This document shows, in pieces, positions 52,729 through 56,315 of a DNA stretch of 56,315 bases. The position numbers were made by a program, and so were the translations under genes. The notes under the pieces are model-generated. The model was given only the letters and a program-made list of their open reading frames with translations. It had not been told where the DNA came from and did no database searches. The stretch lies in contig NZ_PXYK01000035.1 in assembly GCF_003012745.1 (NCBI RefSeq), positions 1 to 56,315 on the forward strand, in the 5' to 3' direction. Each line of letters opens with the position of its first letter. Positions within the stretch are counted from its first letter, which is position 1. This DNA comes from Kumtagia ephedrae (lineage in GTDB: Bacteria; Pseudomonadota; Alphaproteobacteria; Rhizobiales; Rhizobiaceae).

Positions 52729-53892
52729 ATGGATTTCGGTCTTTCCGAAGAACAAAAGCTGATCGTCGATACGACGCGCGCCTTCGTCGAAAACGAACTC
52801 TATCCGCATGAGCGCGAGGTCGAGCGCAGCGGCCATCTCAGGATGGAGCTGATCAAGGAACTGCAGAAGAAGGCGATCGACGCGGGGCTCTATGCCGCCA
52901 ACATGCCGGCCGAGGTCGGCGGCGCCGGGCTCGATACGGTCACCTGGCTGCTCTATGAAAAGGAACTCGGGCGCGCCAACTATGCGCTGCATTGGACCTG
53001 CGTGGCGCGGCCGTCCAACATCCTGCTCGCCGGCACGCCGGAACAGCGCGAAAAGTATCTTTTCCCGTGCATCCGTGGCGAGAAATGGGACTGTCTCGCC
53101 ATGACCGAGCCGGGCGCCGGCTCCGACCTGCGCGGCATGAGGGCATCGGCCGTGCAGGACGGCGACGATTTTGTCCTCAACGGTACCAAGCATTTCATCT
53201 CCCATGCCGACCTTGCCGACTTCGCAATCGTCTTCATGGCCTCGGGCGAGGAGGAGTCTCCACGCGGCAAGCGGAAGAAGATCACCGCCTTCTTCGTCGA
53301 CAAGGGAACGAAAGGCTTCACCGTCCGCGACGGCTACCGTAACGTCTCGCACCGCGGCTACACCAATTCGGTGCTGGAGTTCGACGACTGCCGGCTGCCG
53401 AAGGAGCAGGTTCTCGGCGAGGTGCACAAGGGCTTCGAGGTGGCGAATTCCTGGCTGGGCGCGACGCGCCTGCAGGTTGGCGCCACCTGCCTCGGCCGGG
53501 CCGAGCGGGCGTTGCAGCACGCGATCGAATACGCCGCGCAGCGCGAGCAGTTCGGCCAGCAGATCGGAAAGTTCCAGGGCGTGTCGTTCAAGCTCGCCGA
53601 CATGGCGACCGAGCTGAAGGCGGCCGACCTGATGGTGTTCGAGGCCGGCTGGAAATACGATTCCGGAACCGTCACCGACCAGGACATGGCGATGGCCAAG
53701 CTGAAGGCGACCGAAATGCTTGCCTTCGTCGCCGACGAGGCGATCCAGATCCATGGCGGCATGGGGCTGATGGACGACCTGCCGCTGGAGCGCATCTGGC
53801 GCGACGCAAGGGTAGAGCGCATCTGGGAGGGAACGAGCGAGATCCAGCGGCACATTATCTCGCGGGCATTGCTGAGGGCGGTGGGGGGATGA
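52729..53892 (+). CDS. Acyl-CoA dehydrogenase
   Basis: 387-aa FAD flavoenzyme. N-terminal MDFGLSEEQKLIVDTTRAFV; FAD-binding CLAMTEPGAGSDLRGMRASA and FVLNGTKHFISHADLADFAI; C-terminal EAIQIHGGMGLMDDLPLERI and RIWEGTSEIQRHIISRALL, with the usual catalytic-base region. Beside carnitine genes it probably oxidises gamma-butyrobetainyl-CoA to crotonobetainyl-CoA (inference from context). It is followed by palindromic element copy 3 and the acyl-CoA ligase. Confidence 0.92.
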   Translation: MDFGLSEEQKLIVDTTRAFVENELYPHEREVERSGHLRMELIKELQKKAIDAGLYAANMPAEVGGAGLDTVTWLLYEKELGRANYALHWTCVARPSNILLAGTPEQREKYLFPCIRGEKWDCLAMTEPGAGSDLRGMRASAVQDGDDFVLNGTKHFISHADLADFAIVFMASGEEESPRGKRKKITAFFVDKGTKGFTVRDGYRNVSHRGYTNSVLEFDDCRLPKEQVLGEVHKGFEVANSWLGATRLQVGATCLGRAERALQHAIEYAAQREQFGQQIGKFQGVSFKLADMATELKAADLMVFEAGWKYDSGTVTDQDMAMAKLKATEMLAFVADEAIQIHGGMGLMDDLPLERIWRDARVERIWEGTSEIQRHIISRALLRAVGG

Positions 53893-53913
53893 TGGGCCTG
53901 CCCGCGCTCTGTC

Positions 53914-54070
53914 GCACCCCCCTCTGGCCTGCCGGCCATCTCCCCCGCAAGGGGGGAGATTGGCAGCGTCGGCGTCGCGCCTCTCACTGCGCTGGAGACT
54001 GGCGAAAGCAGCCCGGCCATCCAATCTCCCCCCTTGCGGGGGAGATGGCCGGCAGGCCAGAGGGGGGTGC
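53914..54070. repeat. Palindromic element, family A copy 3
   Basis: Arms 53914-53963 and 54021-54070 are perfect 50-bp inverted repeats. The spacer matches those of the other copies only when read on the minus strand, so this copy is reversed. Its right end, GAGGGGGGTGC, lies 3 nt before the ligase ATG. Confidence 0.92.
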
Positions 54071-54073
54071 TGC

Positions 54074-56315
54074 ATGATGAACCGCCTCGAACGCCTCCTT
54101 CGCCCGAAATCCATCGCCGTCATCGGCGGCGGCGCGTTCGGCACCAGCGTCGTCAGGCAGTCGCTGAAGATGGGCTTTGCCGGCGCAATATGGCCGGTGC
54201 ACCCGAGCAAGGCCGAGGTCGAGGGCGTGAGGGCCTACCGCACGGTGGCCGAGCTGCCCGGCGCGCCGGACGCGGCCTTCATCGGCGTCAACCGCCACCT
54301 CACCGTCGAGATGGTCAAGGCGCTGCGGGAGAAGGGCGCCGGCGGGGCGGTGTGCTTCGCCTCCGGCTTCCGCGAGACCGGGCACTACGACCCGGAAGGC
54401 GACGGGCTGCAGGCGGCGCTGCTGGACGCCGCCGGCGACCTGCCGATCATAGGCCCGAACTGCTACGGCCTGATCAACTACGCCGACGGCGCGCTGCTGT
54501 GGCCCGACCAGCATGGCGGCATCCGCCTTGCCGAAGGCGAAACGGGCGCGGCGATCGTCACGCAATCCTCCAACATCGCCATCAACATGACCATGCAGGC
54601 GCGCGGCCTGCCGGTCGCCTACATCATGACGGCCGGCAACCAGGCGCAGACCGGTCTGTCGGAGATGGCGCTTGGCCTGATCGAGGATAGCCGCGTCTCG
54701 GTGCTGGGGCTGCATATCGAGGCGTTCGACAAGGTCGACGGTTTCGAAAAACTGGCGGCGCGGGCGCGGGAGTTGAAGAAGCCGATCGTCGCGATGAAGG
54801 TCGGGCGCTCCGAGCAGGCGCGGGCCGGCACGATCTCGCACACCGCCTCGCTGGCCGGCTCGGATGCGGCCTCGGATGCGTTCCTGAAGCGGCTGGCCAT
54901 CGCCCGGGTCAACTCGATCCCGTCCTTCCTGGAAGCGCTGAAGCTGCTGCATGTGCACGGGCCGCTGGCGGGCTACCGGCTTTCTTCCATGAGCTGTTCG
55001 GGCGGCGAGGCGTCGGTGATGGCCGACAGCGCGGAAGGCCGGAAGGTATTCTTCCCGCCGCTGGCCGAGGAGCATCGGGCGCGCGTCAAGGCGACGCTGG
55101 GGCCGCTGGTGGCGGTCGCCAACCCGCTCGACTATCACACCTTCATCTGGAACGACGAGCCGGCGATGACGGCGACCTTCGGCGCCTTGGCGTCGGGCGG
55201 CTTCGACCTCAACCTGCTGGTCCTCGACTTCCCGCGCCGCGACCGCTGTTCGGACGTCGACTGGTGGACGACGCTGCGGGCGTTCGAAAGCGGGCTCAAG
55301 GCGCATGGCGCCAGGGGCGCGGTGGTGGCGTCGCTGCCGGAAAACCTGCCGGAGGATTATGCGCCCGGCCTGATGGCACGCGGCATGGTGCCGCTTTACG
55401 GTATCGCGGAAGCGTTCGACGCGGCCGAAGCGGCGGCGGTGATCGGAGAGGCTTGGTCGCAGGAGGAGTTGGAACTGGTCGGGGGTGTGGGCGCCAAGGC
55501 ACCCCCCTCTGCCCTGCCGGGCATCTCCCCCGCAAGGGGGGAGATTGATCCGGCCGCCAGGAGTTCGCCAATCGCCAGCATTTCAGAAGGAGCAGCGGCG
55601 CCGAAGCTGCCGATCTCCCCCCTTGCGGGGGAGATGGCCGGCAGGCCAGAGGGGGGTGCCTTGCGCTACCTGGCCACCCTGGACGAAGCCGGTGCCAAGG
55701 CGCTGCTGGCAGAGGCCGGCGTGTCGGTGCCGGCCGGACAACGCGCCACGACGGTGGACGAGGCGGTTGCCGCCGCCGCGGCGCTCGGCTTCCCGGTTGC
55801 GCTCAAGGCGCTCGGCGTGGCGCACAAGTCGGAAGCGGGCGCGGTGAAGCTCAACCTGCGCGACGCGGCCGCGGTGCGTGCCGCAGGGGAACAACTCGTG
55901 CCGCTGGGCAGCGGGCTCTATGTCGAGCGCATGGTCGAGGGCGGCGTCGGCGAACTGATCGTCGGCTTCACGCGCGACCCGCTGTTCGGGCCGGTGATGA
56001 CGCTGGGCTCGGGCGGCGTTCTGGTCGAGTTGCTGAAGGATTCCGCCACCTTGCTGCTGCCGGCGTCGCGAGCCGAGATCGAGGCGGCGCTGCGCGGGCT
56101 AAAACTGTTTCCGCTGCTCGACGGGTTTCGCGGCCGGCCGAAGGCTGATCTGCGGGCGGCGATCGGGGCGATCGAAAGGCTGGCCGGCTTCGTGCTCGCC
56201 TATGCCGACGAGATCGATGAAATCGACGTCAACCCGCTGATCGTCTGCGCCGAGGGCAAGGGCGCCTGGGTGGCTGACGCGTTGATGGTCGTTTCCTCCC
56301 CCCTCGCGGGGGAGG
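54074..56315 (+). CDS. NDP-forming acyl-CoA ligase (acetate--CoA ligase family) with in-frame palindromic insert; 3' end beyond the window
   Basis: At least 747 residues; no stop before the right edge. Order: CoA-binding Rossmann domain (about 8-130: KSIAVIGGGAFGTSVVRQSL, then GPNCYGLINY), two ligase/flavodoxin-like domains (about 150-450) with the phosphohistidine His256 in TISHTASLAGSD, and an ATP-grasp domain from about 535 (GFPVALKALGVAHKSEAGAV, later FGPVMTLGSGGVLVEL and EIDEIDVNPLIVCAEG). Reaction: acid + CoA + ATP to acyl-CoA + ADP + Pi. Residues about 474-530 are read from palindromic element copy 4 with no frame change or stop, in the linker before ATP-grasp. The start is ATG 54074 or 54077. 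Context suggests activation of gamma-butyrobetaine or carnitine (inference). Confidence 0.92.
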   Translation, partial: MMNRLERLLRPKSIAVIGGGAFGTSVVRQSLKMGFAGAIWPVHPSKAEVEGVRAYRTVAELPGAPDAAFIGVNRHLTVEMVKALREKGAGGAVCFASGFRETGHYDPEGDGLQAALLDAAGDLPIIGPNCYGLINYADGALLWPDQHGGIRLAEGETGAAIVTQSSNIAINMTMQARGLPVAYIMTAGNQAQTGLSEMALGLIEDSRVSVLGLHIEAFDKVDGFEKLAARARELKKPIVAMKVGRSEQARAGTISHTASLAGSDAASDAFLKRLAIARVNSIPSFLEALKLLHVHGPLAGYRLSSMSCSGGEASVMADSAEGRKVFFPPLAEEHRARVKATLGPLVAVANPLDYHTFIWNDEPAMTATFGALASGGFDLNLLVLDFPRRDRCSDVDWWTTLRAFESGLKAHGARGAVVASLPENLPEDYAPGLMARGMVPLYGIAEAFDAAEAAAVIGEAWSQEELELVGGVGAKAPPSALPGISPARGEIDPAARSSPIASISEGAAAPKLPISPLAGEMAGRPEGGALRYLATLDEAGAKALLAEAGVSVPAGQRATTVDEAVAAAAALGFPVALKALGVAHKSEAGAVKLNLRDAAAVRAAGEQLVPLGSGLYVERMVEGGVGELIVGFTRDPLFGPVMTLGSGGVLVELLKDSATLLLPASRAEIEAALRGLKLFPLLDGFRGRPKADLRAAIGAIERLAGFVLAYADEIDEIDVNPLIVCAEGKGAWVADALMVVSSPLAGE
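55495..55663. repeat. Palindromic element, family A copy 4, inside the acyl-CoA ligase gene
   Basis: Arms begin at CAAGGCACCCCCC (55495) and end at GGGGGGTGCCTTG (55663). The left arm has TGCCC-TGCC-GGGCA and the right arm the usual GGCC type, so each arm keeps its own hairpin although the two arms no longer match there. The spacer carries GTTCGCCAATCG. It is translated in the ligase frame as a peptide containing GISPARGEI and PISPLAGEMAGRPEGG. Confidence 0.93.

Follow-up and report, generated by a model that had tools for sequence, protein, structure and literature searches.

Whether a palindromic repeat can enter a conserved gene in frame, be translated there and add a segment to the protein is the question raised by the end of one contig of Kumtagia ephedrae (NZ_PXYK01000035.1; the window, i.e., the whole stretch of 56,315 nucleotides analysed here). 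The older question at stake is what such inserts amount to: junk that is tolerated, mobile DNA that is still live, or a source of new protein parts. Rickettsia, the best-known case of translated palindromes, is hard to work with; here the hosts are free-living relatives, many of them culturable, the inserts sit in core enzymes, and related species with, without or with a swapped insert at one place make the question directly testable.

The first-pass annotation had claimed a 169-bp palindromic element translated without a stop inside an acyl-CoA ligase, and both its coordinates and its reading frame proved right: the frame from 54074 is intact through the element and stop-free up to the end of the window, which is also the end of the contig, with the stop codon beyond view (Table 1). 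The element consists of two 51-nt arms, 96% complementary and 67 nt apart, and by eye the complementary stem extends a few bases past 55495 and 55663 on either side, with a bulge. The single-strand RNA fold of 55485-55675 reaches -142 kcal/mol (z = -10), a value equalled by 0 of 200 shuffles, and a search of 53800-56315 against Rfam gave no match at E up to 1. The ends characteristic of its family, named family A, read GCACCCC...GGGGTGC by eye, and the small hairpins of the window copy differ between the arms, one arm having CCC/GGG and its partner GCC/GGC.

Table 1. Features of the window and in-frame elements in other genes (locus handles are given for copies in other genomes).
Feature	Position or locus	Strand	Remark
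Family A copy, its end lying 3 bases upstream of the first ligase ATG	53914-54070	-	
ADP-forming acyl-CoA ligase	54074-56314	+	747 aa visible; 3' end beyond contig
Translated palindromic element, family A	55495-55663	+	ligase residues about 474-530
Left arm	55495-55545	+	C run, small hairpin 55512-55521, large hairpin 55523-55545
Core of family A, common to other genome copies	55499-55659	+	
Spacer separating the arms	55546-55612	+	67 nt
Right arm	55613-55663	+	large hairpin 55613-55635, small hairpin 55637-55646, G run
Probable beginning of another element, 3' end of ligase gene	56294-56315	+	by eye; cut by contig end
Family B in 5-oxoprolinase, both parts	L273, L287		G106
Family B in GNAT protein	L288		G106
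Family B in glycyl-tRNA synthetase beta	L285		G106
Kin B/D/E in 5-oxoprolinase	L300, L328		
Kin B/D/E in glycyl-tRNA synthetase beta	L315, L319		two elements each
Kin B/D/E in UvrD	L317		
Kin B/D/E in MmeI-like methyltransferase	L318		
Kin B/D/E in DNA polymerase I	L321		
Kin B/D/E in Lhr-like helicase	L324		
Kin B/D/E in helicase	L326		which we take to be HrpB-like
Kin B/D/E in 2-oxoacid dehydrogenase E2	L329		
Kin B/D/E in XdhC	L294, L307, L325		
Kin B/D/E in ResIII/DEAD helicase	L293		

The host gene encodes a ligase of the acetate/4-hydroxybutyrate-CoA ligase kind, ADP-forming, every NCBIfam score lying below the curated cut-off, and its predicted structure is similar to the DMSP lyase DddX and to 4-hydroxybutyryl-CoA synthetase. 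That the insert falls exactly in the linker between the ligase and ATP-grasp parts, as had been proposed, is borne out by Pfam, which places CoA_binding_2 (12-134) and Succ_CoA_lig (159-292) on the N-side of residues 474-530 and ATP-grasp_5 (535-740) on their C-side. In the AlphaFold model, 472-532 is the only run longer than two residues in which pLDDT falls below 50, both flanking domains being well predicted (mean 86), so that these residues are predicted to be disordered between folded domains. Moreover, an archaeal homologue has alpha and beta as separate chains that match ligase residues 2-375 and 537-739, which puts the insert where alpha and beta are fused.

The element belongs to a multicopy family. 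At least 40 family A places were found in the own genome, 39 of them besides the window copy (40 of 162 first-look candidates were scored), and two of the 39 (L010 and L011), near contig ends and with similar flanks, may be one copy. In the 58 copies read (12 of 70 were unread), the small local hairpin is paired in 109 of 116 arms, in T-A, G-C and C-G versions, and the two arms are unlike each other in 15 copies. From its sequence, we read the family A element as two REP-like units paired in inverted orientation, each with a hairpin of its own. By eye, the other families are built of the same kind of modules in a different order, and because these modules are common to families B, D, E and F, their labels overlap; the families are multicopy, family F being scarce in G054 (3 matches). 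Family A also matched 182 plasmid records, mostly rhizobial; among the 60 plasmid matches listed, two lay over ABC-transporter genes and the others had no gene or no annotation under the match, and the one match inspected more closely was rejected as an insertion, the overlap being at the edge only. Among six genomes searched for a Y1 (RAYT) transposase, none was found in the own genome, G106, G145 or G251 (the E. coli control was positive), and G178 and G196 gave one match each.

Two minor features of the family A copies may be added. The flanks (L001-L030) lengthen the palindrome by sequence that varies across copies but in each copy still pairs with its counterpart, e.g., GTTCTTTC/GAAAGAAC in L022 and GGCGGGACA/TGTCCCGCC in L010. 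In the copy just upstream of the ligase ATG, the G run (GAGGGGGG) could serve as ribosome-binding site.

Within the genus, the ligase is present in all four genomes searched, the own included, and every one of them carries a palindromic linker insert, of family A in the window and G002 and of family B in G003 and G001. The family-wide search found the ligase (E up to 1e-200) in 78 of 297 genomes, 77 of them with a readable linker (L188, cut by the contig end, was left out). Linker length is a multiple of three in 75 of the 77, the exceptions being L058 and L166; a match to non-ligase copies of families A-F was seen in 37 linkers, with 75 of sufficient length for the test, and 36 of the 37 keep the frame. 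Among all linkers of at least 30 nt, 41 of 120 match non-ligase copies, 37 of the 41 in the 77 family genomes and the remaining 4 in named loci that share linkers with other loci of the set. Shuffled linkers gave 0 of 120 and other stretches of the same genes 0 of 600, zero controls that are not fully matched because the repeat library had been gathered with linker queries for families B-F; family A matches elsewhere are free of this bias. Linkers L043, L051 and L056, longer than 100 nt and matching no family, were counted as absent.

As for the doubt, raised at the outset, that distant homologues might carry the same linker residues, most of these homologues have a linker of 39-57 nt without them (60 nt in Mesorhizobium), and the 111-nt linkers of two distant homologues (L082 and L089) match none of the six families. 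The insert of L082, from an uncultured Rhizobiaceae, is different-looking (SPCHSRYSGNPERMALDRRCGDDDNGG) and has no match to the six families. The L077/L166 linker measures 22 nt, and no family was matched in the relatives L154, L156 and L159, the Mesorhizobium rows and L141, the last being too short to test. The ligase halves lie in different frames at the element in L058 (G107) and without an element in L166 (G212); each may be a broken gene, a sequencing error or an enzyme naturally made as two chains.

On a ligase tree of 82 rows, made by a quick method with the linker omitted and with long-branch warnings, presence and absence of the element require at least 21 changes, and well supported branches alone force 16, for the group without the element. 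Family labels change 34 times, a figure less sure than the 21 since the labels overlap. Species of one genus, the own genus included, are often split on this tree, so the ligase gene itself may have moved, which would explain part of the scatter. Family A entered the linker at several points (L033, L037, L147 and L153), and by eye its scars can be seen in otherwise short linkers (e.g., L153 and L158), while most of the B, D, E and F inserts begin, again by eye, a few residues from the same tryptophan. Judged from these comparisons, the ligase linker is a hotspot, repeatedly colonised by several palindromic families.

The linker and the rest of the enzyme evolve differently. In ten ligase pairs the flanks have dN/dS of 0.04-0.27, which shows them to be under strong purifying selection, and the alignment of 40 sequences holds many invariant columns. 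The linker gave 0.44-1.55 in eight element or remnant pairs (0.84-1.55 in five of the eight), and 0.08 and 0.17 in two element-free pairs. Four-fold sites changed less in the linker than in the flanks in L049/L050 (0 of 37 vs 113 of 377, p 7e-6), L152/L162 (2 of 27 vs 120 of 368, p 0.0045) and L053/L160 (3 of 22 vs 129 of 339, p 0.022); the other three of the six element pairs and the remnant pair L157/L161 showed no significant difference, and in two of three element-free pairs the difference was significant in the opposite direction. Between L049 and L050 the arms differ at 0 of 90 positions and the spacer at 9 of 54. By these silent-site counts, some in-gene arms appear to be held or homogenised at the DNA level.

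Is the ligase then a single curiosity? A copy was taken to be in-gene if the frame through it ran on open for 40 or more codons in either direction, with a positive codon score near both edges, a rule that recovers 27 of 31 known ligase cases. It was passed by 1 of 69 non-ligase copies of family A (own genome 1 of 29, G178 0 of 20, G251 0 of 20), by 4 of 20 family B copies in G106 and, over seven genomes, by 14 of 40 copies of kin B, D and E, these 40 being the best matches to ligase inserts and no random draw (Table 1). The single family A case (L002 1501-1659; own genome, contig C25 54113-54271) lies in frame in a CobB-like protein as residues 500-552, between CbiA (259-443) and GATase_3 (582-770), Pfam domains on both sides, and its peptide is of the same kind as that of the ligase insert. 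Of the 19 in-gene loci, 16 have Pfam domains both before and after the element, and L288, L293 and L326 have one on a single side. These counts are probably low, since the Pfam search was limited to copies passing the rule. Six own-genome matches of a weaker codon rule (17 of 31 positives) were rejected, since they fell either in front of a gene or within an open frame of 69 residues, and the weak first codon rule passed 0 of 29 named-genome copies picked by translated peptide (L111, L123, L131, L134 and L136 were unscored). The second 5-oxoprolinase-region insert of G106 (L287) splits Hydantoinase_B in an apparently conserved stretch.

Two of these genes could be followed across genomes. The 5-oxoprolinase was matched in 24 of 151 genomes with a query that itself has an insert, and all 24 carry 24-183 nt at one site, always a multiple of three, in a sample without an insert-free outgroup. 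Among inserts of at least 30 nt, 14 of 22 match the repeat library minus the insert's own copy (shuffled, 0 of 110), the best family being A in 3 (L334, L335 and L340 hold family A parts), B in 5, E in 5 and F in 1. XdhC has an insert at the same place in three genomes, of family B in L294 and L307 and of family E in L325, likewise without an insert-free outgroup. Both enzymes appear to follow the pattern of the ligase linker, a site used by several families, and, as far as sequence comparison can tell, the in-frame element is no one-off: the ligase site and sites in other enzymes have been colonised repeatedly.

The first-pass annotation had further suggested that its open frame may let the element colonise genes as well as spacers. 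The frame is indeed open, but openness alone is no explanation, with 1 of 69 family A copies in-gene; whichever of the six family A frames is taken, 39-60 of the 69 copies have it open, so openness does not by itself select the frame. A single orientation and frame is nevertheless shared by 11 of 14 non-ligase in-gene loci (the others using two further ones, with 2 and 1 loci; L002, L285, L293, L307 and L325 are excluded from this count) and by 21 of 28 ligase linkers, 8 further linkers being unmatched by the four queries.

How do these elements compare with known systems? Rickettsia palindromic elements (RPEs) are described as palindromes of about 100-150 bp that lie between genes and also in frame within conserved genes of unrelated kinds, where they encode a conserved peptide (PMC2229807, PMC10969869). 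The likening to RPEs made at the start holds: family A is a multicopy palindrome, it and its kin lie in frame in unrelated conserved genes (A in the ligase and the CobB-like protein, kin B, D and E in others), and here too mostly one reading frame is used. Unlike RPEs, compared by description, the present elements have another host group and a G+C-rich sequence, and several module-sharing families occupy the same sites in many genera. For GTAG/CGTC REPs, pairs are reported from within the genes for uvrD, DNA polymerase I and tRNA synthetases, as are different REPs at about one site in recB of two Xanthomonas species, and linkers and loops are proposed as neutral sites (PMC3733652). Kin elements here likewise lie in UvrD, DNA polymerase I and glycyl-tRNA synthetase, and family A resembles BIME-type REP pairs in its two inverted units with a hairpin in each; unlike GTAG/CGTC REPs, its ends have no GTAG or CGTC tag by eye, no Y1 (RAYT) transposase was found in the own genome, and the composite units are larger. 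Rhizobium-specific intergenic mosaic elements (RIME) are palindromic mosaics of about 108 bp. They are described as repeats of rhizobial intergenic regions (PMC2573895), whereas the elements here, compared with that description, also lie within genes. Protein-coding palindromes in Rickettsia and intragenic REPs in other bacteria are therefore known already; the new part is the hotspots reused by several families, in this host group. In openly licensed literature, represented mostly by titles and abstracts, we found no description of translated palindromes in rhizobial-type bacteria or of one site occupied by several families in many genera.

With a probability of roughly 0.86, we hold that a REP-pair element was inserted in frame in the flexible ligase joint and is translated as tolerated filler. 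A paired REP-like palindrome of a multicopy family would insert in frame at the joint of the alpha-like and beta-like halves, presumably through a mobilising activity in trans; it would be translated in the cell as about 56 extra, probably disordered residues, would be tolerated because the joint is a spacer, and would decay through in-frame deletions that leave scars. What counts against this account is that no mobiliser was found, Y1 transposase being absent from four of six genomes searched, the own included, that family A is in-gene in only 1 of 69 copies in three genomes, and that the frame is broken in L058, at the element, and in L166, which has none. The break inside the L058 element could rather speak for a dying ligase gene, or for a frame open by chance, which is scarcely credible in view of the strong purifying selection on both flanks, the 75 of 77 linkers in frame and the many invariant columns among 40 sequences. 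The halves of L058 and L166 in different frames, and a junction where archaeal relatives split into alpha and beta chains, would also suit an element removed from the RNA, or an RNA cut there into two chains as in the archaeal enzyme; we think this very improbable, as 36 of 37 element-bearing linkers keep a frame that splitting would not need.

A hairpin useful in place, e.g., slowing the ribosome between domains or tuning the mRNA, and kept by selection would fit the RNA fold of -142 kcal/mol, the fewer four-fold changes in the element than in the flanks in 3 of 6 element pairs, and the L049/L050 arms (0 of 90 changes vs 9 of 54 in the spacer). Three element pairs and one remnant pair lack any significant difference, however, close relatives do without any family match (L154, L156, L159 and the Mesorhizobium rows, L141 being too short), and gene conversion or recent exchange can also conserve silent sites, which leaves such a usefulness improbable. 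A stronger rival is directed insertion, in which the elements recognise some cue at these sites, be it the structure of the DNA, its state of replication or an element already resident, and families land or convert at nearly the same codons. It draws on the occurrence of different families at almost identical positions in the ligase, 5-oxoprolinase and XdhC, on the starts of most B, D, E and F ligase inserts near one tryptophan (by eye), and on the shared modules that would permit conversion; yet no common flanking sequence is evident by eye among these genes, family A has several points of entry into the ligase linker, and clustering in loops is predicted by tolerance alone, so that we consider direction unlikely, though worth keeping in mind.

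Beyond the preferred reading of tolerated filler, we would tentatively suggest, at somewhat less than even odds, that such loops are standing landing sites which families enter, replace or convert repeatedly, the in-gene copies being live, with arms kept or homogenised as DNA and a peptide that drifts; the XdhC site slightly raises the odds. If it were true, the repeats would be a renewable supply of interdomain linkers, and hairpin DNA seems in any case to furnish proteins with new segments beyond the Rickettsia group too. Apart from the linker, the C-terminus of the ligase looks element-coded in relatives as well: L032 ends in SSPLEGEVAAKRPEGV..., and the stop of L033 is preceded by TSPLWGGRAEGAGGGA.
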